DNA of 64,000 nucleotides, taken from NCBI RefSeq assembly GCF_004101785.1, contig NZ_CP035130.1, positions 62,001 through 126,000 of the forward strand, written 5' to 3'. Positions 49,397-64,000 of this stretch are shown here, piece by piece (position 1 is the stretch's first letter; every line of letters starts with the position of its first letter). The notes under the pieces are model-generated. The model was not told the DNA's origin, did not search any database, and saw nothing but the letters and a program-made list of their open reading frames with translations. The position numbers were made by a program, and so were the translations under genes. This DNA is from Gudongella oleilytica (GTDB lineage Bacteria; Bacillota; Clostridia; Tissierellales; Tissierellaceae).

Positions 49397-52300
49397 ATGG
49401 AAATACTCGATAACATTAATAAAACTGTAAAGGAAGATTTAGAACGAACGGTATCAAAGGGAGATAAGCTAGCAATTGCATCTGCATGCTTCTCGATTTA
49501 TGCATATGAAGCTCTCAGGAAGCAATTGGAAAGTATTGATGAAATGAGATTTATATTTACTGCACCAACTTTTTTAAATGAGAAGATTCCGAGAGAAAAA
49601 AGAGAATTCTATATACCTCGATTGAATCGAGAACGTTCATTATTCGGTACTGAGTTTGAAGTTAAGTTGAGAAATGAAATGACTCAAAAGGTAGTAGCTC
49701 GAGAGTGTGCAGATTGGATAAGAAAAAAAGTCCAGTTTCGTTCAAATACTACCGGTGGATCAATTGGTACGTTCTTTAGTGTCGTAAAAAACGATGAGAC
49801 AATTACTTATTCTCCATTTAACTCATTCACTACTTCAGATTTAGGTTGTGAACGTGGGAACAATATCATAAACATGGTCAACCGGATAGATTCTCCGTTA
49901 TCCAAAGAGTATATTAAGATGTTCGAACAGATTTGGAATGATAAAAACATACTTCAAGACGTTACTGAACAGGTAATCGAAGATATTACAGCAGCTTATA
50001 ATGAAAACTCTCCAGAATTTATATACTTTATTGCAATATACAATATCTTTAGTGAATTTCTTGAGGATATAAATGATGATATACTTCCCAAAGAAGCAAC
50101 AGGGTTTAAAGAAACCCAAATATGGAAAAAACTATATGATTTCCAACAAGATGCTGTGTTAGCTATTATCAATAAGTTAGAAAATTATAATGGATGTATT
50201 CTAGCAGATAGTGTTGGTTTAGGGAAAACATTTACTGCTCTTGCTGTTATAAAATACTATGAGCTTAGAAATCGTAATGTTTTAGTACTATGCCCTAAGA
50301 AGCTAGGAGATAATTGGCTAACATTTAAAGAAAACTACCTTAACAATCCGATAGCTTCGGATCGTCTAAGGTATGACGTACTCTATCATACAGATTTATC
50401 TCGTGAAAGTGGTCGCTCTGGGAGTATAGATATCTCTAAGCTAAACTGGAGTAATTACGATCTTATTGTCATCGATGAAAGCCATAATTTTCGTAATGGT
50501 GGTGATTACTCAAGAAATGGAGATATAAAACGAGAAAATAGGTATCTTACACTCCTTAATAAAGTAATTAGACAAGGAGTAAAAACAAAAGTTCTTATGC
50601 TCTCTGCAACACCGGTAAATAATGGTTTTTCTGATTTGAGACATCAGCTCGAACTTGCATATGAAGGGGATTCATCACAAATAAGCGAAAAGCTAGAGAT
50701 AGAAAAGCCGATTGATGTTATATTTAGGGTTGCACAAACTGCCTTCAATAGATGGAGCAAGTTAGGTCCGAAGGAAAGAACTACAGAAAGTCTACTGCGC
50801 TCGCTGGATTTTGATTTTTTTACAATTCTTGACAGCGTTACAATAGCTCGATCGAGGAAACACATAGTTAAATATTATAATGTTGAGGCTATAGGTAAAT
50901 TTCCTGATCGCCTGAAACCCATCTCACTGCGTCCAAGATTGACAACCTTAGCTGGTGCTATAGATTATGATGAGATTTATAATTTACTAATGAAGTTGAA
51001 TCTTGCTGTATATATTCCAACAGATTTTTTGCTTGAAAGTAAAAGATATAAGTATATAAATTCTGAATTAAATATTGATAGAGCAGGTCGAGAAATCGGG
51101 ATAAGAAGGTTGATGTCAATAAACCTACTAAAGCGCCTCGAAAGCTCAGTTGCATCATTTAGAATAACACTTGATCGTGTATTAAATCTTATTGAGGGAA
51201 CAATTGAGGCTATAGATGCGTATGAAAATGGTGATAATAGGATTTTAAAAGCACAGGATATTTCGGAAGAAGACTTTGATGGTGATGATAGGAACACTAC
51301 TTTGTTTGGAAATAATACGAAGAAAATTGACATAGATCTAGGCGATATGGATTACATAACCTGGAGAGATAAGCTATTTGATGATACAGAGATATTACAA
51401 TTATTATCATCCATGATCAGGGACATTACACCAGAACATGATTCAAAACTACAATCATTAGTTGATCTAATCTCTGTTAAGATCCAAAACCCTATTAATG
51501 AAAATAATAAGAAAGTAATTGTGTTCTCAGCATTTTCTGACACTGTAGATTATCTATATGCTCAGATAGGTACAGTAATAAAAGAAAGATTTGGGCTTAA
51601 TACAGCTATGATAACAGGTACAACTGAAGGTAGAACTACAGCCAAATTACAACGTACGGATATGAATACAATACTTACACTATTCTCACCAAAAGCAAAA
51701 GATAAAGAACTATTAATGCCAAATAATCCGATGGAGATTGATATCCTAATAGCAACAGACTGTATTTCTGAAGGACAAAACTTACAAGACTGTGACTATT
51801 GCGTTAATTATGACATACATTGGAATCCTGTCAGAATTATTCAGAGATTTGGACGGGTTGACCGCATTGGGAGCCATAATAATTCAATTCAGCTCGTGAA
51901 TTTTTGGCCAAATATTGGATTAGATAAGTATCTCGAATTAAAAGGGAGAGTGGAGACTCGTATGAAAGCATCAGTAATGGTTGCTACTGGTGATGATAAT
52001 CCTATTGACCCTGATGAATTAGGAGATCTTGAGTACAGAAAGTCTCAACTAGAACGCCTACAAAATGAAGTTGTCGATATTGAAGACATGCAGAATGGTG
52101 TGTCTATTATGGATTTAGGCCTGAATGAGTTTAGACTAGATCTTCTCGACTACGTTAAAAAACATGATAATCTAGATAAAGTTCCATTTGGTCTTCATGC
52201 AGTTGTAAATGGTAATGAAGAAACCCCTAAAGGAACAATATTTGTATTGAAGAATAATAACACTAAAATCGACAATCAAAGTAGGAATCAACTACACCCA

Positions 52301-52627
52301 TTTTATATGGTCTATGTACAGGATGATTCAAGAGTGTTTATAGATCATTTGCAACCTAAAAAATTATTAGATGTACTTAGACAAATCTGCAAGGGGAAAT
52401 CAGAACCAATATTAGACCTTTGTAAGCAATTCAATCTTGAGACAAAAGACGGGAAAAACATGAAGCATTATTCAGACCTCCTTTATTTTGCAGTGGAGTC
52501 AATAGTAGATCTCAATGAAGATGATATACTTGATAGATTCCTTTCAGGTAAACAAATTTCATTTGCAGCAAATACAATCGATGGACTAGATGACTTTGAG
52601 TTAGTATGCTTCATTAATGTGAGGTGA
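49397..52627 (+). CDS. SNF2/HepA-like helicase with N-terminal PLD-like region
   Basis: This 1076-residue SF2 translocase has an N-terminal 190 residues resembling the phospholipase-D-like regions of such proteins (SKGDKLAIASACFSIYAYEAL). The SNF2 core has ILADSVGLGKTFTALAVIK near residue 270, DESHNFRN near residue 359, and MLSATPVNNGFSDL. The C-terminal half has IVFSAFSDTVDYLY, DCISEGQNLQDCDYCVNYDIHW, and motif VI IQRFGRVDRIGSHN near residue 817. The start follows GGGGGGAAG. It is 10 bases upstream of a DUF4391 gene, then type III mod and res. HepA-like helicases in this position occur in extended type III-like restriction clusters. It probably moves along invading DNA. Confidence 0.87.
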   Translation: MEILDNINKTVKEDLERTVSKGDKLAIASACFSIYAYEALRKQLESIDEMRFIFTAPTFLNEKIPREKREFYIPRLNRERSLFGTEFEVKLRNEMTQKVVARECADWIRKKVQFRSNTTGGSIGTFFSVVKNDETITYSPFNSFTTSDLGCERGNNIINMVNRIDSPLSKEYIKMFEQIWNDKNILQDVTEQVIEDITAAYNENSPEFIYFIAIYNIFSEFLEDINDDILPKEATGFKETQIWKKLYDFQQDAVLAIINKLENYNGCILADSVGLGKTFTALAVIKYYELRNRNVLVLCPKKLGDNWLTFKENYLNNPIASDRLRYDVLYHTDLSRESGRSGSIDISKLNWSNYDLIVIDESHNFRNGGDYSRNGDIKRENRYLTLLNKVIRQGVKTKVLMLSATPVNNGFSDLRHQLELAYEGDSSQISEKLEIEKPIDVIFRVAQTAFNRWSKLGPKERTTESLLRSLDFDFFTILDSVTIARSRKHIVKYYNVEAIGKFPDRLKPISLRPRLTTLAGAIDYDEIYNLLMKLNLAVYIPTDFLLESKRYKYINSELNIDRAGREIGIRRLMSINLLKRLESSVASFRITLDRVLNLIEGTIEAIDAYENGDNRILKAQDISEEDFDGDDRNTTLFGNNTKKIDIDLGDMDYITWRDKLFDDTEILQLLSSMIRDITPEHDSKLQSLVDLISVKIQNPINENNKKVIVFSAFSDTVDYLYAQIGTVIKERFGLNTAMITGTTEGRTTAKLQRTDMNTILTLFSPKAKDKELLMPNNPMEIDILIATDCISEGQNLQDCDYCVNYDIHWNPVRIIQRFGRVDRIGSHNNSIQLVNFWPNIGLDKYLELKGRVETRMKASVMVATGDDNPIDPDELGDLEYRKSQLERLQNEVVDIEDMQNGVSIMDLGLNEFRLDLLDYVKKHDNLDKVPFGLHAVVNGNEETPKGTIFVLKNNNTKIDNQSRNQLHPFYMVYVQDDSRVFIDHLQPKKLLDVLRQICKGKSEPILDLCKQFNLETKDGKNMKHYSDLLYFAVESIVDLNEDDILDRFLSGKQISFAANTIDGLDDFELVCFINVR

Positions 52628-52637
52628 GATTTTTAGT

Positions 52638-53246
52638 ATGTTTGGATTACCAAAATCAACTGAAATGAGTAAGTCAATACCCAAAAGTGCAATATTCAAG
52701 AAGTTTAAACCATGCTCAATAGATCATAATCTATTTGATGATCAGATCCATCGAATAACAATTGTTGCTGAGGTTTCTCCTAAGACTGTTAGTATAGCAG
52801 CAAGTGATGAACTTACAAGTTTTTTTATTGTTTTGGTTCAATTAAAGACTGTTGATTGCGATAAAAAGAATATATTGCTTTTATCAAAGCTTATTGATCA
52901 GAAAATGATATTTGCTTTGCAATATGAAAATACGATTAAGTTCGCTGTTTACAGAGCAAATAGAGTCAATATATCCGATAGTAGATCAGTTGATAAATGG
53001 GAGTTCAGACTTAAAGGATTTGATTTAGTATCAACTTGGGATCACCTATTCTCTGATATTTTTGGGATTGAACTTTTAGAAGGTAAGAAATTGGACGAAA
53101 TAATTATCCAGAATGAGCTTAGAGATAAAGTTAGAAAGCAATTGGAAATTCTTGAAAACAAAGCAATGATTGAAAAACAACCAAGACGAAAATGGGAACT
53201 AGTAGAAGAGATCAATAAATTAAAAGAACAATTAGAGGGAGTGTAA
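52638..53246 (+). CDS. DUF4391 protein
   Basis: This 202-residue soluble protein begins MFGLPKSTEMSKSIPKSAIF, which matches the DUF4391 family start (leucine, proline, serine-threonine, then a lysine-rich IPK). A beta-rich middle (ITIVAEVSPKTVSIAASDEL) and a C-terminal coiled region (LRDKVRKQLEILENKAMIEK) follow. It lies between the SNF2-like helicase and mod genes with gaps of 10 and 2 bases. DUF4391 proteins are known mainly from such clusters and may be an assembly or specificity subunit; that is inference. Confidence 0.8.
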   Translation: MFGLPKSTEMSKSIPKSAIFKKFKPCSIDHNLFDDQIHRITIVAEVSPKTVSIAASDELTSFFIVLVQLKTVDCDKKNILLLSKLIDQKMIFALQYENTIKFAVYRANRVNISDSRSVDKWEFRLKGFDLVSTWDHLFSDIFGIELLEGKKLDEIIIQNELRDKVRKQLEILENKAMIEKQPRRKWELVEEINKLKEQLEGV

Positions 53247-53248
53247 TT

Positions 53249-55258
53249 ATGAATAAACATGAGAGACTAAATATGCATACTCAAAATTTAGCAAATGAGA
53301 AATTCTCTACTCTTGTAAAAATGTTCCCAAACGCAGTGACTGAGGCAATAAGAGGTTATGATGAAAATGGGGAAGCAATAATTGAAAGATCAATAGATGC
53401 AGATGTACTTTCACAGGAAATTAATACCCATGTTGTTGCTGGAAAAGAAGAGAGATATCAATTTACTTGGCCAGATAAGAAGAAATCAGTGCTACTGGCA
53501 AATTCACCATTAGCAGCAACTTTACGACCATGTCGTGAAGAAAGTGTTGATTTTGATACTACTGAAAATCTTTATATTGAAGGGGATAATCTTGATGTAC
53601 TTAAGTTGCTCCGTGAGACATATTTGAATAGAGTAAAGATGATATATATTGATCCACCTTATAACACTGGGAATGATTTCATATATGAAGATGATTTTGC
53701 AGAAGAAACAGGTGAATTTCTTCGCCGAGATGGTCAATTTGATCAGCAAGGCAATCGTTTAATTTCAAATTTCGATAGTAATGGACGATTTCATACAGAT
53801 TGGTTAAATATGATTTATCCCAGACTTCGCATGGCAAGGGACTTGTTGATGGATGATGGTGTGATGCTTATTAGTATTGATGATAATGAAGTCGAAAATC
53901 TAAAAAAGATTTGTAATGAAGTATTTGGTTCTTCAAATTTTGTAGACTGTATAACTTGGAATACTCGTGTACCCAAAAATGATAATAAGGGACTTGGAAA
54001 CATACACCAATACATATTGGTGTATGTAAAACAATCACAAAGAAATAGGCAATTTATGATGCCTAAAGATGGTTTAGATGAAATTTCCGAGCTCCTTGAA
54101 AAAATGAAGAAACAAAGCATACCAATACCTGAAGCAGAAGAAGAATTAAAGAAACTATACAATAAAAAAGGATATGATAGAGGTATCACTCTATATAACT
54201 CATTAGATGAAAGTTACCAACCTTGGGGAAAAATCAACATGAGTTGGCCCAACAGCAATACATTTGGACCAAATTATGATGTATTACATCCCGTAACTAA
54301 AAAACCGACCAAGAAGCCTGATCGTGGATGGAGATGGAATCAGCAAACATTTAGTAACAATTTAGACTACGAAAATGTTATTGAAAGACATGACGGAAGT
54401 TTTATCTGTGGTAATATTTGGTTTGCAAAAGATGAAAATACTCAACCAAGTTCAATTAAATATTTACGCGATGTTGGCAAAATGCTACTAAGAACTATTG
54501 TTAGTTTAAAAAGTGACGGTGGAGTGGAACTTGAAAACATCTTTGAAGGGAAAAGCTTTTTTTCAAATCCAAAACCAACTTCATTGATAAAATTGCTCAT
54601 AGAATCTATCGAAGAAAAAGAAGGAATTTTCCTTGATTTCTTCTCAGGTTCAGCAACGACAGCCCATGCGATAATGAGATTAAATTCAGAAGATGGGGGT
54701 AATCGCAAATTCATTATGGTTCAAATACCTGAACTCTGTGATGAAAAAAGTGAAGCGTTTAAAGCTGGATACAGCAACATTTGCGAAATAGGGAAAGAAC
54801 GTATTCGTCGAGTGGGGATAAAGATTAAGGAAGAAGCTGGTTTAATAGCCCAAAACTTAGACATAGGTTTTCGAGTTCTTAAGCTAGATAGTAGCAATAT
54901 GAAAGATGTATATTATACACCAGAAGAGTATGGAAAACAGGGCTTTAACTTGGAAGGTTTTATGGACAATATAAAACCGGATCGTACAGATGAAGACTTG
55001 CTATTTCAAGTTATGCTAGAACTCGGCATTCCACTTTCAGCTAAAATCAAACAAGAGAACAAAGAGTTTTCTGTTAACGATAATTACTTAATTGCTTGTT
55101 TTGAGAGAGTTGATACTACTATGATTACTGATATTGCAAAGAAACAACCATATTATGCCGTATTTAGAGATAGTAGTTTTATAAATGATAGTTCACTAAT
55201 CAATGTTGAACAAATTTTCAACACGTATAGTCCTCACACTATAAGGAGGGTATTGTAG
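53249..55258 (+). CDS. Type III restriction-modification methyltransferase (Mod)
   Basis: This 669-residue N6-adenine methyltransferase of beta order has catalytic motif DPPYNTGNDFIYEDDF near residue 135 and SAM-binding motif LDFFSGSATTAHAIM near residue 463. Between them lies the target-recognition region (about 200-430), including the insert LISIDDNEVENLKKICNEVFG. The C-terminal 100 residues are variable. It supplies both specificity and protection in a type III system. The stop directly abuts the start of res, indicating co-translation. Confidence 0.93.
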   Translation: MNKHERLNMHTQNLANEKFSTLVKMFPNAVTEAIRGYDENGEAIIERSIDADVLSQEINTHVVAGKEERYQFTWPDKKKSVLLANSPLAATLRPCREESVDFDTTENLYIEGDNLDVLKLLRETYLNRVKMIYIDPPYNTGNDFIYEDDFAEETGEFLRRDGQFDQQGNRLISNFDSNGRFHTDWLNMIYPRLRMARDLLMDDGVMLISIDDNEVENLKKICNEVFGSSNFVDCITWNTRVPKNDNKGLGNIHQYILVYVKQSQRNRQFMMPKDGLDEISELLEKMKKQSIPIPEAEEELKKLYNKKGYDRGITLYNSLDESYQPWGKINMSWPNSNTFGPNYDVLHPVTKKPTKKPDRGWRWNQQTFSNNLDYENVIERHDGSFICGNIWFAKDENTQPSSIKYLRDVGKMLLRTIVSLKSDGGVELENIFEGKSFFSNPKPTSLIKLLIESIEEKEGIFLDFFSGSATTAHAIMRLNSEDGGNRKFIMVQIPELCDEKSEAFKAGYSNICEIGKERIRRVGIKIKEEAGLIAQNLDIGFRVLKLDSSNMKDVYYTPEEYGKQGFNLEGFMDNIKPDRTDEDLLFQVMLELGIPLSAKIKQENKEFSVNDNYLIACFERVDTTMITDIAKKQPYYAVFRDSSFINDSSLINVEQIFNTYSPHTIRRVL

Positions 55259-58200
55259 ATGAAATTTAAATTTAAAATACAACCCTTTCAATCTGAAGCT
55301 GCCAATAGTATAGTAAAAGTTTTCTCGGGGCAACCCAAGCAAGGCCACTTACAATATCGCCGAGACATTGGAAAGAAGCAATCGCAGATGACCTTTGAAG
55401 AGCAAGACATAGATTATGAGGTAGGATATCGCAATTCAGAAATTGAATTAAGTAAAGACCAGTTACTCAAAAATGTTCGAGCTATCCAAACCGCAAATAA
55501 CATAAAAAATTCATCAGCCCTTGAGGATGGATTGGGCATAGTCTCTTTAGATGTTGAAATGGAAACTGGGACTGGTAAAACATACGTTTATATTAAGTCG
55601 ATGTTTGAGCTGTACAAAACATACGGTTGGAGTAAATATATTGTTGTAGTCCCTAGTATAGCCATTCGTGAAGGTGTTAAGAAATCTTTTGAAATGACTC
55701 AAGAACACTTTATGGAGCTTTATGGTATTAAAGCCAGATTCTTTGTATATAACTCCTCAAACCTACATCAACTAGATGAGTTTTCTCAAAACTCAGGGAT
55801 TAATGTAATGATAATTAATACTCAGGCATTCAATACTACAATGAATGAAGAGAAAAGTGTCGAAGGTAGAAAGGGAAACGAGGCTGCTCGTATCATCTAT
55901 ACTAAAAGAGATGAATTCGGATCACGTAGACCCATCGATGTTATCAAGGCTAATCGGCCGATAATAATTTTAGATGAACCTCAAAAGATGGGTGGAGCTG
56001 CGACACAGAATGCATTAAAAAAGAACTTTAATCCTTTGTTTTCACTAAATTTCTCTGCAACTCATAAGACTTCCCATAACCTTATTTATGTACTTGATGC
56101 ATTGGACGCTTTTAAGAAAAAGCTAGTTAAGAAAATTGAGGTAAAGGGATTTGACCTTAAGAATTTGAGCGGTACAAACAGGTATATTTATCTTGCAGAA
56201 ATTGTTATTGATCGAAAAAAACCACCAAGAGCTCGATTAGAATATGAAGTTAGGCGTGCTAACGGGGTTAGTAGAGAGACTAGATTGCTGGAAGTAGGTG
56301 ATAGCCTATATACTGCATCTAATGGTTTGGAAGAGTATAAAGGTTTATCTATTGTTGAAGTTGATCCGATAAGGTCTATTGTTACCTTTTCAAACGGGGG
56401 AACTTTAGAGCCTGGTGAAGCGACTGGGAATGTGAATGAAGATGATATTCGAAGGATACAAATCCGTGAGACAATCGTATCTCATTTTGATAAAGAAGAG
56501 AAATTATTTGACCAAGGAATAAAGTGTTTATCACTATTTTTTATCGATGAAGTATCAAAATATCGACAATATGATGAAGATGGTAACGAAACTACAAGCG
56601 AGTACGGTAGGATATTTGAAGAAGAGTATAATGCTGTTCTTAATGAGAAACTAACCTTCTTCCCAACAGAATATCAAAGCTATTTGAGGAGCATTGAAAC
56701 TAAGGAAACACACAGAGGATATTTTTCAATTGATAAGAAGGGACGAGCAATAAATAGTGAAGTAAAACGTGGCAGTGAATATTCTGATGATATTAGTGCA
56801 TACGACCTGATTCTTAAGAATAAGGAGCGGTTGCTGTCATTTGATGAGCCAACAAGATTTATATTTTCACATTCCGCTTTGCGAGAAGGATGGGATAATC
56901 CAAATGTATTTCAGATTTGCACATTAAAGCATTCTGACAATGTCACAGCTAAAAGACAAGAGGTTGGAAGAGGATTACGCCTTTGTGTAAATAAGAATGG
57001 AGATCGACAAGATATAGATGAATGTGGAGAATCACTTGTTCATGGATTAAATGTCCTAACAGTTGTTGCTAGCGAAAGCTATGCTTGTTTTGTCGCAGAC
57101 TTGCAAAAAGAAATTAAAGCTGATCTATACGATAGACCCACAAAGGCTAGTGTTGAATATTTCGAAAATAAGAATGTATTAGTTGGGGATGAACTTTATT
57201 CAATTACGGCGGCTGAAGCTACAGCGATATATAATTATCTTGTACGGAATGATTATGTTGATGATAATGGCACCATTACGGAAATTTATCGAGCTGCAGT
57301 AGAAGTGGGCAGTTTTGCACCACTTAAGAAAGAGTTAGAACCGCTTGGCAGTGGCATTCATAAATTGGTACAAGCAATATTTGATCCTAACGTACTTGAA
57401 GATATGATTGACAAGGGGAATAAAACAAAAGTCCATGAAAACCCAATAAATGAGAATTGGAAGGATTTCATCGAGCTTTGGGAGAAAATCAACAAAAAAT
57501 ATGCTTACACTGTTGACTTTGATAGCGAAGAACTGATTAAGAAATCTACAAGTGCTATCGAAACTGACTTGAGAGTATCTAGGTTGATGTATGTACTGAC
57601 TAAAGGTGAGCAAACAGGAACAGAGTTTGAGATCAATCGTTCAGAGACTAAAAAGCTTGATAGATCAAAAGGGAGCCTAGTTGAATATGATCTAATAGGT
57701 AAGATAGCGGAAGCTACGACTTTAACTAGGAAAACCATTACAAAGATTTTAATGGGGATATCAAAACCGAAGTTATGGATGTTCCAAGAAAACCCGGAAG
57801 AATTTATAAGTAAAGTATCTGGAATAATAAACCAACAAAAAGCTTCTGTAGTAATAGAACATATAACATACATACCTAGTGCTGAAGAACCATATTCACA
57901 AGACATTTTTAATATGAGTCGTACATCTGATGAATATTCGAAAGCTTTTAAGGCAAAACGTTCAATCCAGGACTTTGTATTTACGGACGGCACTTCACCT
58001 GATAGTGTTGAAAGACGATTTGCTGAAGATTTAGATGTGGCTGATGAAGTAATAGTCTATGCAAAACTTCCTAAAGGACCTAGAGGTTTTTATATTCCTA
58101 CCCCTGTTGGCAAGTACTCACCAGACTGGGCGATCTCATTTAAAAAGGGAGCTGTAAAACACATTTTCTTTATAGCAGAAACTAAAGGCACTATGGACAG

Positions 58201-58336
58201 TCTCCAACTAAGGCCTATTGAGCAAACTAAGATTTCATGTGCGAAGAAATTATTTAATGAGATCTCTACAAGTGAAGTAAAATATCATGATGTAGACAGT
58301 TATCAAAGCTTATTAGCGATTATGGATTCGGTTTAA
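55259..58336 (+). CDS. Type III restriction endonuclease helicase (Res)
   Basis: This 1025-residue SF2 translocase-nuclease has Walker A METGTGKTYVYIK near residue 102, motif II LDEPQKMGG near residue 238 (DEPQ instead of DEAH, common in Res), and motif III NFSATHK. Motif VI reads RQEVGRGLRLCVN near residue 570. The C-terminal PD-(D/E)xK nuclease is visible as TPVGKYSPDWAISF near residue 955 and IAETKGT near residue 974. It acts with Mod to cut unmodified DNA after ATP-driven movement. A terminator follows. The gene looks complete. Confidence 0.93.
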   Translation: MKFKFKIQPFQSEAANSIVKVFSGQPKQGHLQYRRDIGKKQSQMTFEEQDIDYEVGYRNSEIELSKDQLLKNVRAIQTANNIKNSSALEDGLGIVSLDVEMETGTGKTYVYIKSMFELYKTYGWSKYIVVVPSIAIREGVKKSFEMTQEHFMELYGIKARFFVYNSSNLHQLDEFSQNSGINVMIINTQAFNTTMNEEKSVEGRKGNEAARIIYTKRDEFGSRRPIDVIKANRPIIILDEPQKMGGAATQNALKKNFNPLFSLNFSATHKTSHNLIYVLDALDAFKKKLVKKIEVKGFDLKNLSGTNRYIYLAEIVIDRKKPPRARLEYEVRRANGVSRETRLLEVGDSLYTASNGLEEYKGLSIVEVDPIRSIVTFSNGGTLEPGEATGNVNEDDIRRIQIRETIVSHFDKEEKLFDQGIKCLSLFFIDEVSKYRQYDEDGNETTSEYGRIFEEEYNAVLNEKLTFFPTEYQSYLRSIETKETHRGYFSIDKKGRAINSEVKRGSEYSDDISAYDLILKNKERLLSFDEPTRFIFSHSALREGWDNPNVFQICTLKHSDNVTAKRQEVGRGLRLCVNKNGDRQDIDECGESLVHGLNVLTVVASESYACFVADLQKEIKADLYDRPTKASVEYFENKNVLVGDELYSITAAEATAIYNYLVRNDYVDDNGTITEIYRAAVEVGSFAPLKKELEPLGSGIHKLVQAIFDPNVLEDMIDKGNKTKVHENPINENWKDFIELWEKINKKYAYTVDFDSEELIKKSTSAIETDLRVSRLMYVLTKGEQTGTEFEINRSETKKLDRSKGSLVEYDLIGKIAEATTLTRKTITKILMGISKPKLWMFQENPEEFISKVSGIINQQKASVVIEHITYIPSAEEPYSQDIFNMSRTSDEYSKAFKAKRSIQDFVFTDGTSPDSVERRFAEDLDVADEVIVYAKLPKGPRGFYIPTPVGKYSPDWAISFKKGAVKHIFFIAETKGTMDSLQLRPIEQTKISCAKKLFNEISTSEVKYHDVDSYQSLLAIMDSV

Positions 58337-58351
58337 GTATAGAACAAGATT

Positions 58352-58397
58352 AGCCCCAAAAGTCATTAGAAGATGATTTTTGGGGTTATTTATTTTG
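58352..58397 (+). terminator. Terminator after res
   Basis: AGCCCCAAAA-GTCAT pairs with ATGAT-TTTTGGGGTT around TTAGAAG, followed by ATTTATTTT. It separates the type III-like cluster from the radical SAM operon. Confidence 0.85.
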
Positions 58398-58595: not shown

Positions 58596-59693
58596 ATGAA
58601 GATTGGGTTAATAGATGCAGATTTATTGGATAATGGAACCAAACACCCGAATCTTGCATTGATGAAACTTAGTGCGTACCATAAAGCAGCCGGAGATGAT
58701 GTACATTTAATAAAAAACTATAATGATGACCTGGACTCATTTGACAAATTATTAATGTCTAAGGTATTCAATTTTACGAAGGTTCCGGATCAGGTATTGT
58801 TACGTGAAAATTTAAAAAAAGGCGGTACTGGTTTCTCGGAGGATGGAGGAGAATGTTTGCCTTACGAGGTTGAACATCATATGCCTGATTATTCGCTTTA
58901 TGATGATTATATTCATTTACAAGTTAGCAAAGGTAAAAATATCAAATCATTTTATGCTTATACTGATTATTCAATAGGATTTTTAACAAGAGGTTGCTTT
59001 AGAAAGTGTAATTTTTGTGTTAACAAGAAATATGATAGAGCGGTAAGACATGCTTATATTGAAGAATTTTTAGACAGTAGTAGGAAAAAGATTTACCTTT
59101 GGGATGATAATATTTTAGCTTTTGAAGGGTGGAAGGAAGTCTTATATGAGTTAGAAAGTATCAAGAAACCATTTCAGTTTAGACAAGGGCTAGATATAAG
59201 GCTTATGACATCTGAAAAAGCTAAAATACTGTCTGAGTTAAAATACAGCGGTGACTACATATTTGCATTTGACAATATTGACGATAGAAATCTTATAATT
59301 GAGAAGCTTAAAATCTGGAGAGAGCAATGCAAAAAAACAACAAAGTTATATGTTCTTACTGCGTATTACTCCCAGGATGAAAAAGATATTATTGATACTT
59401 TTGAAAGAATAAAAATAATCATGGAGTACGGTTGTCTACCATATATTATGAGATATGAAAAATATAAAGAATCTAAGCATCGAAGTCTTTATATTCAACT
59501 TGCAAGGTGGTGTAATCAGCCACAATTCTTCAAAAAGATGAGTTTCAGGCAATTTTGTGAAGCTAATCAGAAATATCATAAAACTGAAGGAACTTTATGT
59601 TCAGCCTATAGGGCATTAGCGGATTTTGAATTCCAATATCCTGAGATATCAAGAGAGTATTTTGATTTACGTTATGAGGATGTAAAACAATAA
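58596..59693 (+). CDS. Radical SAM protein in defence operon
   Basis: This 365-residue protein carries the radical SAM motif CFRKCNFC (Cys134, Cys138, Cys141), preceded by SIGFLTRG, as in B12-binding-type and Elp3-like families. The N-terminal 120 residues (IGLIDADLLDNGTKHPNLAL) look like a degenerate Rossmann/B12-binding fold. After the motif come WDDNILAFEGW and FRQGLDIRLMT, typical barrel strands. The C-terminal region is Cys-poor and basic, with no SPASM-type cluster. It probably cleaves S-adenosylmethionine and modifies an unknown substrate. It starts a new operon 30 bases before a helicase gene. It is not viperin-like in its motif. The binding site (AAAGGCAGGG) is moderate. Confidence 0.85.
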   Translation: MKIGLIDADLLDNGTKHPNLALMKLSAYHKAAGDDVHLIKNYNDDLDSFDKLLMSKVFNFTKVPDQVLLRENLKKGGTGFSEDGGECLPYEVEHHMPDYSLYDDYIHLQVSKGKNIKSFYAYTDYSIGFLTRGCFRKCNFCVNKKYDRAVRHAYIEEFLDSSRKKIYLWDDNILAFEGWKEVLYELESIKKPFQFRQGLDIRLMTSEKAKILSELKYSGDYIFAFDNIDDRNLIIEKLKIWREQCKKTTKLYVLTAYYSQDEKDIIDTFERIKIIMEYGCLPYIMRYEKYKESKHRSLYIQLARWCNQPQFFKKMSFRQFCEANQKYHKTEGTLCSAYRALADFEFQYPEISREYFDLRYEDVKQ

Positions 59694-59723
59694 AAAGATC
59701 AGTATTTTGAAAGGGGATATACT

Positions 59724-61724
59724 ATGGAGATTATACCAAAAAGATTAGATAATCTGGATCTTTCCCAAGGAGAAAAATTATTGATCAAAAAGTTAGAACA
59801 ATTGCACGCTGAGGATGGTTCAATTCTTTTAGCTAAAGCAAATCCTGTTGGTAGTGCAAACATACATGCTCTCATATCTAGCAAAGGAGTAGTATTTATT
59901 GAGCATAATAGTATTAATAACACTAGTGTATTACCTCATGTAGTTAAAGGTATTGAGAGTAATAGTACTGATCAAGCAAGAAAGATTCACTCTAGATTGA
60001 GTCAGCATAAAATGCTTAAAGTTAAAAACGGTGATAAAGAATTCCTAAAATTTCCGTTTACATATAAGGTTTATTTTAGTGAGCTGAAGGAAAAGGAGGT
60101 AACTAAATTAGATGTCGCAGGAGATGATAAAGAATTTCTAAGAGATCACTGCATATATCAAGACACTCAGATCTCTGAAGAAAAACCACTTTTCAAAATT
60201 TTCAAAGATACTTCGACAAGAAGAGATCTTCAATATGCTCTACACTCTAATGTTAAGAATTCTTATTGGGGAGATTGGGATGGATTTAGCAAAGAAGAGA
60301 TTAATTATGTGATCCAGATGATTTGCCCCGAGTATACTATACCTATTCCTAATTCCCACGAGGCCGAAACACCTCAAGTGGAAAATATTGCTGTCAACGA
60401 ATCTGAAGAAGTGTATGACATTAGCAAAGATGATTTTAATGTAAAAGTACATCGTTTGGATGAAGAGCAGATTCAAATTATAAATAATCTTAGAAAAGGG
60501 AATCAGCTTATTCTTGCATGTGCTGGGAGTGGTAAGAGCGTTATTCTAATTTCTAAGGCTTTTAGAGCTGCCAGCATACATACAGATCAAAATTTCTTAA
60601 TAACGTGTTTTAACAGAAACCTTGCAAGCTTTTACCAATGGAAGATGGGTTACTCAGGGTATAGAGAGCGAAATGTAAAAGCGGTGACTTTTCACAAGCT
60701 AATACAAGAATTGTTACACGAAGCAGGAATTCAATATTCAAGAATTGATCATGAAGAAAATTTTGAAAAAGCAAATAAAGCTCTACATGAAGGCAAAATT
60801 AAGAGAAGATATTATGGTATCTTTTTAGACGAGATTCAAGTATTTAAGCCTGAATGGTATGAGTTTTGCTATTATTTATTAGCGAATCACGATAGGGATA
60901 ATTACTTCTTTACTATTTGTGGAGATATATCCCAAAACGTAAATAGAAACATTAAAAAAGGCGGCGCACCATGGCAGTCTACAGGTAATCTAGAGTTACC
61001 AAAATATACGGGTCGAAGCTTGAGAATTGACAAGAATTATAGAAATTCAATTGAAATTAATGATTTTGTTACTGAAATCACCAGGGTGTCAAAACAATAT
61101 CTTCAAGAGTTCAACATTAATGTTGAAAATGAAGAAGAGACATTCTTAATGGGGAAAGCTTTTAGAACATCAACAAAGCCTCGTGTAATTAAATCAGATA
61201 GAATGAAAGTGGTAGATAAAGTAGTTGAAGAGATTATTTACTTGAGAGATAAAAACAAGGTACCATTGGAAAGAATCGCAATAATTTTCCCATTCAGACA
61301 ATATCAGCCAAATAGGTATTACTTTTATAATTGGTTGGTTGATAAACTAAGAGAAAAATACATTGAGAGCTATTCATTAATAGTCGGACAAGATGGGACT
61401 TTGCCTGCTATATATGGCATGAATAGCGGAGTTGCGCTTACGACGATCGAATCATCACTTGGACTGGATTTTGACGCAGTAATTTTGAGCGGATTATTTC
61501 CGATGGGAAGTTACTATAATTCGAAAAATAAAACTAGGATGACTAATTCAGGAGGTACTAACGATGAGCTCAACCAGGAGTTCATTGATTGCATAAACAA
61601 AATCTATACTGCTTGTACTAGAGCAAGAGACCACTTAACTATAGTCCTTGAAGAAGATGAAAATATTTCTTTGTACTCAAAAATTATTTTAGAGTCTTAT
61701 GAAAGGGTGATGAACAATGACTAA
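59724..61724 (+). CDS. SF1 (UvrD/Rep-like) helicase with degenerate NERD-like N-terminus
   Basis: This 666-residue protein has an N-terminal 150 residues with SQGEKLLIKKLEQL and SANIHALISSKGVVFIEHN, which resemble a NERD nuclease domain in which the catalytic Asp and ExK are changed. The helicase core begins LDEEQIQIINNLRKGNQLILACAGSGKS near residue 245-273. It has motif II FLDEIQVFKPEW, motif III GDISQNVNR, and motif IV-like RIDKNYRNSIEIN. The late motifs are VALTTIESSLGLDFDAVIL and YTACTRARDHLTI. The start follows AAAGGGG. The stop overlaps the next gene by eight bases, so the two are translationally coupled. It probably unwinds DNA or RNA within the system. Confidence 0.87.
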   Translation: MEIIPKRLDNLDLSQGEKLLIKKLEQLHAEDGSILLAKANPVGSANIHALISSKGVVFIEHNSINNTSVLPHVVKGIESNSTDQARKIHSRLSQHKMLKVKNGDKEFLKFPFTYKVYFSELKEKEVTKLDVAGDDKEFLRDHCIYQDTQISEEKPLFKIFKDTSTRRDLQYALHSNVKNSYWGDWDGFSKEEINYVIQMICPEYTIPIPNSHEAETPQVENIAVNESEEVYDISKDDFNVKVHRLDEEQIQIINNLRKGNQLILACAGSGKSVILISKAFRAASIHTDQNFLITCFNRNLASFYQWKMGYSGYRERNVKAVTFHKLIQELLHEAGIQYSRIDHEENFEKANKALHEGKIKRRYYGIFLDEIQVFKPEWYEFCYYLLANHDRDNYFFTICGDISQNVNRNIKKGGAPWQSTGNLELPKYTGRSLRIDKNYRNSIEINDFVTEITRVSKQYLQEFNINVENEEETFLMGKAFRTSTKPRVIKSDRMKVVDKVVEEIIYLRDKNKVPLERIAIIFPFRQYQPNRYYFYNWLVDKLREKYIESYSLIVGQDGTLPAIYGMNSGVALTTIESSLGLDFDAVILSGLFPMGSYYNSKNKTRMTNSGGTNDELNQEFIDCINKIYTACTRARDHLTIVLEEDENISLYSKIILESYERVMNND

Positions 61725-64000
61725 GTCTTATAATAATAGAAAAATTTTCGCTGAGAAGATCTGTGAAGATTTCATTGATAGCATAACTGGGAGAAATGTA
61801 GAGCAGTTAAAAGGAATAAATCCTGATAAAGCCTACTATGTAGGGAAACTATTCCCAGTAATAGAAACACTAAATGGAAATGAAATGACCTCAAATGTTA
61901 TCGTAAGTCAAATGTCTATAGATTTCTTTCTGAAGGAGGAACATATTCACAAGGCTAGAGTCGCAATCAAAATTAAGGGTGATTTCTATTATAGGGTTCT
62001 ACCTACATATGAAGAGCAGCTTAATTACTATATAGATACAGTCAGCGACAAGATATCCGATATGGATTTAAATACAATTACTGAAATCAACGATTTTTTT
62101 AGGATGAACAGTAAGAATCTACAGATAACAAATCTTAATAAATGTGATATCTATAAAGTTTACAATAAAATCTCATTTGATGATACATATTTTGAAATTG
62201 AACTGGATGAAGTTGTAGCAGGGAAAGCTGAATCGAGATTTTCATTTAATAATAAAATAATTGAATACCTTGATGTAAAAATTGATGAAATTATGGCAAA
62301 TCCAAAAGTATATAGACCTATAAATGATAACATTTCATCTCATAACTTGATTTCAGAAATTGAGTATGAAGAATTTTTGGATATGTTTAGGAATAAAGAT
62401 ATCCCAAGGCCGAATTTTAATATAGATCTATTAATCAATACCAAACTAGTGGGTGAAGGGAAATATAGGATTAGTGCCAGTCTAATAAACAAGACCGAGT
62501 CCAACATTGTGAGCAGGAACCTGGATAAAGCACCATATCTACCAATACTATTCAACTCTGGGGTGGAAATTTGCTTACAAAATGCTGAATATAGGGACAT
62601 CGAGTTAGATTATTTCTTGGATGATTATAAGTATAATAAAACTACAAAGGGTATTGGGACCAACTGTAGCATAGAATTCGATGCAGAATCGAATAAACTT
62701 GTTAGTACCAACATTCCTATGTTCATTCAAAAAAGACTCAAAACTAGAGAAGATCTATCAGTTAAATTTATGGAGCTAATTGAAGATCCTGTAACTGTTT
62801 TGAATAAAGTTGCTAAGAGGATGGAAAAAGAATTAGATCAATGGGTTATCGATTATGAGACGAAGAAAGATCATCTGGTTTCAGACCGTGAACATCTAGA
62901 ATCAGCACAAAGAACTTATACTGAGGAAATAAAGAGTTTTGAATTCGAAATAAAGAGATTTAAGTATGGTATTGAACAAATTAAGAATAGAGAAATGGTA
63001 AGAAAATCATTCATTAATATGAACAAAGCCTTTAAGAATACCTCTGATAAGTATGATAGTTGGAGACTTTTCCAGTTAGTATTCATCGTTTCAGTGATCC
63101 CAGATATAATTTCTACGCATTATGGAGAAGACGACATAGATAAATCATTCATAGATATGGTTGATTTGTTGTACTTCCCAACAGGTGGAGGAAAAACAGA
63201 AGCTTTCATAGGCTGCATAATTTTCACTTTATTCTTTGATAGAATAAGAGGAAAAAAGTCAGGCGTCTCTGGCCTTATTAAATATCCACTTAGGTTATTG
63301 TCTGTGCAACAAATAGATAGGTTGGCCAATGTCTTGGCAAGTGCTGAGATAATAAGAGAGCAGGAAGCAAAAATATTCGATGGGGATAGATTTTCCCTTG
63401 GATATTTTGTTGGAGATTCTAATACTCCAAATAAACTTACGGAGACATCTCTTCAAAATTATCTTTCCAAATCACAAGAACAACTTAATGATGAGCTAAG
63501 GATCATAGACTACTGCCCATTTTGCAAGCAGAAGTCTATTAATATTGCAGTTAATGAAGAGTCTCTAAGAATCATTCACACTTGTAACACTGAGGGGTGT
63601 CCCTCAAAAGGGGAGGTTCCGTTGATAATTGTAGACAACGAAATTTATAGATACCTCCCTTCAGTAATCATAAGCACAATAGATAAGATAGCATCAATAG
63701 GATTTCAATCAAACTTTAGAAACATTTTGGGGGATGTTTTTCATAAATGTCCTAAGCATGGATATACAAGTAAGAAGACTTGTACTGAAAAGGACTTGTG
63801 CAAAGTTGATGTGACAGAATTCATAGATGTTGAACTCTTTGACCCTTCACCTTCGCTAATTATTCAAGATGAGGTTCACTTAATTAGAGAGTCATTAGGA
63901 ACTTTTAATTCTCACTACGAAACTTTAATACAGTATATGCTTGAAAATCTATGTCGTAGTAATAAAAAAGTCAAAGTAATTGGAGCTACTGCAACAATAT
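61717..64000 (+). CDS. DrmA-like (DISARM-type) helicase, 3' end outside window
   Basis: The frame is open from ATG 61717 to the window end (761 codons, no stop), so the protein is larger. About 480 N-terminal residues include a coiled coil near 370-420. Then comes the DISARM helicase hallmark LLYFPTGGGKTEAFIG near residue 487, followed by SGLIKYPLRLLSVQQIDRL. A zinc-ribbon-like insert has CPFC near residue 600, CNTEGC near residue 623, and a further CPKHG...C group. Next are VIISTIDKIASIGFQ, the DEVH box LIIQDEVHLIRESLGTF near residue 718, and VIGATATI. The arrangement matches DrmA, the helicase of DISARM. The start overlaps the SF1 helicase gene. The usual partner, a DUF1998 (DrmB) protein, would be expected downstream. 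Confidence 0.88.
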   Translation, partial: MTKSYNNRKIFAEKICEDFIDSITGRNVEQLKGINPDKAYYVGKLFPVIETLNGNEMTSNVIVSQMSIDFFLKEEHIHKARVAIKIKGDFYYRVLPTYEEQLNYYIDTVSDKISDMDLNTITEINDFFRMNSKNLQITNLNKCDIYKVYNKISFDDTYFEIELDEVVAGKAESRFSFNNKIIEYLDVKIDEIMANPKVYRPINDNISSHNLISEIEYEEFLDMFRNKDIPRPNFNIDLLINTKLVGEGKYRISASLINKTESNIVSRNLDKAPYLPILFNSGVEICLQNAEYRDIELDYFLDDYKYNKTTKGIGTNCSIEFDAESNKLVSTNIPMFIQKRLKTREDLSVKFMELIEDPVTVLNKVAKRMEKELDQWVIDYETKKDHLVSDREHLESAQRTYTEEIKSFEFEIKRFKYGIEQIKNREMVRKSFINMNKAFKNTSDKYDSWRLFQLVFIVSVIPDIISTHYGEDDIDKSFIDMVDLLYFPTGGGKTEAFIGCIIFTLFFDRIRGKKSGVSGLIKYPLRLLSVQQIDRLANVLASAEIIREQEAKIFDGDRFSLGYFVGDSNTPNKLTETSLQNYLSKSQEQLNDELRIIDYCPFCKQKSINIAVNEESLRIIHTCNTEGCPSKGEVPLIIVDNEIYRYLPSVIISTIDKIASIGFQSNFRNILGDVFHKCPKHGYTSKKTCTEKDLCKVDVTEFIDVELFDPSPSLIIQDEVHLIRESLGTFNSHYETLIQYMLENLCRSNKKVKVIGATATI

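Follow-up and report, generated by a model that had tools for sequence, protein, structure and literature searches.

A DISARM-like operon with a radical SAM component in Gudongella oleilytica and its relatives

The window analyzed here is a stretch of 64,000 nucleotides of Gudongella oleilytica (positions 62001-126000 of a 2.36-Mb single-contig genome, with coordinates below given window-wise unless a locus handle precedes them), and its 3' end harbors the first part of a plus-strand operon encoding a radical S-adenosylmethionine (rSAM) protein together with helicases related to the DISARM defense system. The open reading frames (ORFs) bore out the arrangement given in a preliminary description of the sequence, namely three plus-strand genes, of which the first two lie 30 bases apart, the last two overlap by 8 bases and the third runs off the window end. 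The first encodes an rSAM protein of 365 aa and phage type (PHROG 9298; 58596..59693), assigned from its ORF, profile and predicted fold; the second, a UvrD-like superfamily 1 (SF1) helicase of 666 aa with a degenerate NERD-like N-terminal domain (59724..61724), assigned from profiles, alignment and a model; and the third, a DrmA-like superfamily 2 (SF2) helicase of 1145 aa (61717..64000, open at the window edge, with its stop at window-equivalent 65154), assigned from profiles and a PDB match. Reading the genome past the window on the same strand added genes for DrmB (window-equivalent 65159-67102) and, in fifth position, a NERD-SF1 nuclease-helicase (window-equivalent 67087-68709). The terminator that the preliminary description had placed ahead of the operon corresponds to a plus-strand terminator-like hairpin at 58351..58388 (17 pairs, a loop of 4 and a T-rich tail), located between a Res gene (end 58336) and the rSAM gene, which sets the operon apart from type III restriction genes on its 5' side. 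Since terminator-like sites numbered 2 in the scanned stretch against 2.2 expected from shuffles, the case for a terminator lies in the length of this hairpin and not in the count.

The DrmA-like identity proposed for the third gene was supported by PADLOC (PDLC02576, E 1e-169) and by the solved DISARM DrmA structure (PDB 7s9v, E 9e-55), together with the FPTGGGKTEAF Walker A motif (residues 487-497, codons at 63175..63207), the DEVH box (residues 718-721, codons at 63868..63879) and conserved Cys/His residues compatible with zinc-binding inserts. A DrmB-like partner, which had been anticipated past position 64000, was found in the adjacent separate gene (PDLC02582, E 4e-56), in agreement with the proposal of a DISARM-related operon. 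Both proteins differ from DISARM members in scoring under the NCBIfam cut-offs (382 bits against 950 for DrmA and 72.7 against 240 for DrmB); DrmB also remained below the Pfam MZB threshold (17 bits against 24.2) and had no counterpart among PDB sequences at E 0.01. The PLD gene likewise anticipated downstream was not encountered: of the ten proteins scanned, core and downstream, none matched a PLD nuclease (DrmC), and the NERD-SF1 nuclease-helicase occupies the next position. Profile scans also detected no DNA methyltransferase among the window operon proteins. The operon thus differs from DISARM in lacking the PLD nuclease and the methyltransferase while possessing an rSAM, a UvrD-like SF1 and a NERD-SF1 protein, and the absence of DrmC and of DrmMI/DrmMII from it led us to reject an assignment to DISARM proper.

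The designation of gene 2 as a NERD-like SF1 helicase stood for the helicase part and failed for the nuclease part. At the aligned NERD site the ExK residues are missing in 17/17 gene-2 proteins, and the predicted model (pLDDT 76) has Schlafen and UvrD helicases as its top Foldseek rows, on which grounds an active NERD nuclease was rejected for this gene. The true NERD and SF1 combination is encoded by the fifth gene past the window, where the D..ExK signature is kept in all 16 aligned NERD-SF1 proteins.

The first gene, already described as radical SAM, matched phrog_9298 (E 7e-62), and the Pfam Radical_SAM profile remained under its cut-off (15.7 bits against 29.5), matching at E 0.01 only one of the 41 members of the relative alignment. 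Its membership in the superfamily is established by a CxxxCxxC motif in 41/41 aligned relatives (C134, C138 and C141; codons at 58995..59018) and by a confidently predicted radical SAM fold (pLDDT 92.5; Z up to 17.7). The best VIA-align rows were AprD4 (Z 17.7, root-mean-square deviation (rmsd) 3.9, 307 aligned) and MgmA (Z 17.6, rmsd 3.8, 291 aligned), which were tied, and the methylthiotransferases MiaB (Z 16.5, rmsd 3.6, 280 aligned) and RimO (Z 15.7, rmsd 3.9, 276 aligned) also aligned; by Foldseek, the top match was MiaB (E 4.5e-8, TM 0.47). Weaker fold matches included some peptide-acting rSAMs, such as SuiB (Z 8.7), and MoaA (Z 8.1). No DNA-acting rSAM was recognised among the fold matches listed, an absence that carries no weight. 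The likeness to AprD4 and to MiaB/RimO-type enzymes thus extends over nearly the whole length (Z 15.7-17.7, 276-307 residues), at only 11-13% identity and without conserved auxiliary-cluster cysteines in the window rSAM family. Beyond the three motif cysteines none is invariant in the 41 relatives, C306 being present in 40 and C280 in 35. MiaB/RimO methylthiotransferases need three N-terminal cysteines for their auxiliary (second) cluster, which are not conserved among these relatives, and a methylthiotransferase identity was rejected. The DxHxxG cobalamin motif of B12-dependent radical SAM enzymes occurs in 0/41 relatives (first 130 residues), and a classical B12-dependent identity was likewise rejected; cobalamin-binding enzymes without DxHxxG do exist.

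Conservation of the operon was assessed across 20 DrmA loci, comprising 18 from a genome scan that relied on two peptide patterns and probably undercounts, one from a virus scan, and the window. Neighborhoods were read in five of 18 further genomes with DrmA matches and in three of 85 plasmid records. In a tree of 27 rows holding 19 of the 20 loci (L104 left out), the DrmA sequences formed one clade with support 100/100, with several long branches flagged, including L103 and control rows. After setting aside L095 and L104, whose contigs stop inside the operon, an rSAM gene was observed in the cluster at 17 of 18 judgeable loci, among which L093/L094/L107 and L098/L099 are near copies. These genes belong to three rSAM types: 14 of a long type located 3' of the NERD-SF1 gene, two of a third type located 5' (Fictibacillus and Bacillus), and the phage type of the window, also 5'. 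The recurrence of rSAM genes with DrmA, raised in the preliminary description, therefore holds for the clade and does not hold for the true orthologs of the window rSAM, which adjoin Pbe genes. In [Clostridium] ultunense, of the same order (L090), the UvrD-like, DrmA, DrmB, NERD-SF1 and rSAM proteins are 58, 62, 55, 63 and 24% identical to those of the window, and the five-gene set stands alone between an MTAP-like phosphorylase and PurL (neighbor names read from sequence). Taken together, these data show the operon to be genuine and conserved, a DISARM-like variant that includes a radical SAM protein.

Additional genes accompany this set at many loci. A whole or partial gene for an HSP90-like GHKL ATPase (TRAP1/HtpG profile match, E 2e-10 to 5e-10) was detected in 15/20 loci and is missing at the window, L090 and L103, and many loci encode between gene 2 and DrmA a weakly FapA/bactofilin-like protein (28.8 and 29.1 bits, under the cut-off of 31). 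At two Bacillaceae loci (L105:2002-5213 and L106:1-2807), a different rSAM of 629 aa and a 441-aa partner lie 5' of the HSP90-like gene, from which they are separated in L106 by a transposase-like gene, read from sequence. The DrmA clade includes one member from a Spirochaetales metagenome-assembled genome and one from a virus contig, by which the operon may be mobile. At L100, the whole operon is bracketed by two closely similar genes for 412-aa proteins (L100:2567-3805 and L100:21552-22790), integrase-like as read from sequence, which suggests a mobile element.

A search of 16 rSAM-bearing DrmAB operons, all but that of the window, found no PF00145, PF01555 or PF02384 methyltransferase inside any of them, the nearest on the same contigs lying ~5 kb beyond the L107 operon and ~9 kb beyond that of L101, with a fragment ~10 kb before L090. 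In nine DrmAB loci without a matching rSAM, five have an adjacent methyltransferase (L073, L076, L103, L269 and L271); L075 (type I-like genes) and L077 (a C5 methylase 4.6 kb away) were not counted as methyltransferase-bearing, and none was seen at L074 and L270. The resulting comparison (0/17 with rSAM against 5/9 without, p 0.0019) is post hoc, and its 17 loci represent one clade and are phylogenetically non-independent.

Among the bacterial genomes that were scanned, two contain the nearest relatives of the window rSAM (60% and 47% identity), which lie beside PbeA and PbeC and not beside DrmA. Pbe loci are a second setting for rSAM genes. PbeA was detected in 30/398 Bacillota genomes at E 1e-60, and the 22 strongest loci (E 3e-129 or better; spans of 14-20 kb, with L070, L071, L079, L081 and L082 included) were read, leaving out the eight weakest. 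Phosphorothioation genes, either Ssp/BrxP-like or Dnd, were identified from PF01507, PF00266 and DUF4007 matches and from PADLOC matches to SspA, SspC, SspD, BrxP, DndA and DndC on representatives, and the absence of rSAM was judged by a motif scan and by BLAST searches (five rSAM queries, E 1e-5). Six loci carried an rSAM gene (two of window type, three of long type and one of another type), 13 carried phosphorothioation genes, three carried neither and none carried both (Fisher p 0.0011, for loci whose dependence is weighed below). Locus L303, scored as phosphorothioation via DndA and DndD/PbeC-like matches with DndC not in view, is doubtful, and moving it gave p 0.0028; a CxxxCxxC-containing ORF of L310 was rejected as an rSAM on proving to be a helicase. 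Within this 22-locus sample, rSAM and phosphorothioation genes are mutually exclusive.

The long-type rSAM occurs in settings with PbeA/PbeC/DndE-like, with ParB-like and SNF2-like, or with HerA and NurA-like genes, usually with a GHKL gene present. At E 1e-40 it was found in 6/398 Bacillota genomes, in every case within such modules (three Pbe and three HerA) and in 5/6 with GHKL; copies on the virus contigs L190, L195, L197, L199 and L201 are in none of these settings. A PDB sequence search with the long-type profile returned nothing meaningful. Five loci (L080, L088, L198, L200 and L319) share a four-gene cluster of a NurA-like protein, HerA (profile against 7f6d, E 1.4e-55), an HSP90-like ATPase and an rSAM, which we consider a candidate for another defense system with the same rSAM family; a PDB sequence search with the NurA-like protein gave no match, and its name is taken from its position beside HerA and from a motif. 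A further arrangement on the virus contigs L188, L191, L192, L193 and L194 consists of a ParB-like protein, a SNF2-like helicase (ZorD/DpdE-like), a second ParB-like protein, an rSAM and an HSP90-like ATPase, and in L194 two halves of this set are in facing orientation.

Relatives of the window-type rSAM were also retrieved from 79 virus contigs; 76 of these loci had a suitable length, and clustering at 80% identity reduced them to 38. Separately, 15 phage records matched this type. Within 300 bases of the rSAM, 29/79 contigs have a gene of a ParB/N6-N4-methyltransferase cluster and 22/79 one of a C5-methyltransferase cluster, each cluster being confirmed by Pfam on one representative, and two annotated phage matches agree in overlapping 'DNA methyltransferase' and 'ParB-like' genes. 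Other window-operon genes were found beside none of these 79 rSAMs (E 1e-5, flanks up to 10 kb). A SAM-synthetase-like gene is present in 19/79 of these loci (L108-L186), for example at L118:7057-7953, one representative matching S-AdoMet_synt_N.

Several other gene groups surround the operon in G. oleilytica. Upstream, a type III-like restriction cluster (49397-58336) encodes a SNF2-type helicase, a 202-aa protein, an N6/N4 methylase and a Res protein with an endonuclease domain; the methylase (53249-55258) has its own Res gene and lies behind the terminator, 3.3 kb upstream of the operon. Downstream, a 110-aa protein that stands alone and is similar to EF-Tu domain 2 (L002:17742-18074) is encoded between the NERD-SF1 gene and an NYN-nuclease gene, the latter directly followed by ZorA- and ZorB-like genes (L002:19643 to L003:2156, window-equivalent ~70643-73156; ZorB1 model E 3e-70, ZorA weak). 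This pair is possibly a Zorya variant, and no match to ZorC, ZorD or ZorE was obtained in the ten proteins scanned. The EF-Tu-domain, NYN and ZorAB-like genes were rejected as parts of the system, the [Clostridium] ultunense five-gene relative being without them. Further downstream are a DarT gene (L003:5449-6435, Pfam E 3e-15) and an ADP-ribosylglycohydrolase gene (L003:9536-10408, E 2e-34).

Considering these observations, we propose, at roughly even confidence, that in this DISARM-like operon the rSAM occupies the modification slot held by DNA methyltransferases in DISARM and by phosphorothioation enzymes in many Pbe systems. From the sequence comparisons, a modification function of the rSAM is likely and its substrate is probably DNA; the comparative evidence for action on nucleic acid consists of the Pbe exclusion and the methyltransferase neighbors in virus contigs. 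In the scheme that we infer, DrmA and DrmB would load onto invading DNA that is exposed or unmarked and would then translocate, a sensor-translocase role suggested by homology to DISARM as treated in the available part of PMC9142583. The UvrD-like SF1 protein, as a helper helicase, and the NERD-SF1 nuclease-helicase would unwind and cut the invading DNA, and the rSAM would place a mark either on host DNA or on a DNA-reading component, by which the host DNA would be spared. Alternatively, the mark could prime the system instead of protecting self. More broadly, and with less confidence, the rSAMs, often with an HSP90-like ATPase, might constitute a DNA-modification module that is interchangeable, differs from both methylation and phosphorothioation, and has repeatedly been joined to DrmAB/NERD, PbeABCD, ParB/SNF2 and HerA plus NurA-like sets.

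Several observations weigh against the proposed modification slot, beginning with the post hoc nature of the DrmAB comparison. Ureibacillus L103 lacks both the rSAM and NERD genes and is sister to the other clade members in the DrmA tree, and a type III Mod is encoded 3.3 kb upstream in the operon's own genome. A window-type rSAM was seen beside DrmA in the window only, the usual partner rSAM being 24% identical. For the Pbe loci, 3/22 have neither enzyme, and the rSAM label is clustered on the PbeA tree, with three changes, gains or losses, at least two of which are forced by well-supported branches, so the 22 loci are not independent. The chemistry of rSAM enzymes is broad, and a fold match is no demonstration of function. 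Lastly, the accessible portion of PMC9142583 indicates that DISARM may separate self from non-self by DNA structure, in which case a mark need not exist.

This last point lends itself to an alternative in which DrmAB reads DNA structure alone and the rSAM produces a small antiviral molecule or signal, in the manner of viperin-like rSAMs, which make a ddh-nucleotide, or acts on one of the system's own peptides or proteins. The similarity to peptide-acting rSAMs (SuiB, Z 8.7) is consistent with it; MoaA, whose fold we take to be that of viperin, scored far lower than the best matches (Z 8.1 against 17.7), and the Pbe exclusion and methyltransferase proximity in virus contigs point to nucleic acid instead. 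The sensing of 5' overhangs by DISARM DrmAB, with self avoidance proposed partly via DNA structure (PMC9142583, in the part available), agrees with such a division of labor, which we nevertheless judge unlikely.

Another explanation, to which we attach a still lower probability, treats the window rSAM as a phage-derived neighbor outside a DrmAB set that works there without an rSAM. Its type is indeed a phage family, as reflected in the phrog_9298 match, the 15 phage records and the 79 virus contigs, and a second DrmAB locus with a window-type rSAM was not found. However, the gene lies 30 bases from gene 2, on the same strand and behind the terminator, and two other genomes have an rSAM of its type (60% and 47% identity) next to Pbe modules. 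In addition, the window's genome has no long-type rSAM at E 1e-40, such that excluding this gene would leave the window and L103 as the only rSAM-less judgeable loci. The least probable of these readings is that the rSAM, like MiaB, acts on RNA such as tRNA and serves repair or sensing against phages that target translation: RNA-bound MiaB ranks with the top fold matches (Z 16.5), but the N-terminal cysteine triad required for the second MiaB cluster is not conserved, and the core partner genes are of the helicase and nuclease types of DNA-directed systems.

Comparison with described systems places the operon apart from each of them. The PbeABCD/CxC-DndE systems, the subject of PMC6459918 and PMC10853773, similarly combine a restriction-like helicase/nuclease module with a variable modification partner, in some cases with the same rSAM types, but their core consists of a PLD-SF2 helicase, an ABC ATPase and DndE without DrmAB; no Pbe match (PbeA/PbeC) was obtained in the window operon proteins, and no PbeA at E 1e-60 in the genome. 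ARMADA, BRIGADE and TALON are likewise operons of YprA-family helicases, TALON also with a NERD nuclease, and differ in the BrxHII- and PglX-like genes of ARMADA and the TPR-CSD and TBP genes of TALON (PMC12458937, main text and legends as available). The helicase studied here matches DrmA models, and TPR-CSD/TBP domains were present in none of the ten proteins scanned, which separates it from TALON. A legend of the same article cites 'many uncharacterized DISARM-like' classes, and its main text, as available, names no radical SAM protein. In the accessible text of PMC10853773, the partners of Pbe-type modules are methylases or phosphorothioation, and the term 'radical SAM', used twice there, refers to DndC; DISARM, HSP90 and GHKL are not mentioned in the text of PMC12839542. 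No paper pairing rSAM with DISARM, NERD, HSP90, HerA or Pbe was found in the open-access literature, covered without supplements and with few subscription papers, and as far as these searches reach, a DISARM-like variant with a radical SAM protein is undescribed.

The similar swap of the modification enzyme in a second defense system, Pbe, hints that DNA may be marked in a way not yet described. According to PMC10853773, modifications of an entirely different kind may be made by some ABC ATPase-DndE systems that lack phosphorothioation genes, and the rSAM offers a concrete candidate for these. If the proposed role is true, radical chemistry would be added to the prokaryotic ways of marking DNA as self.

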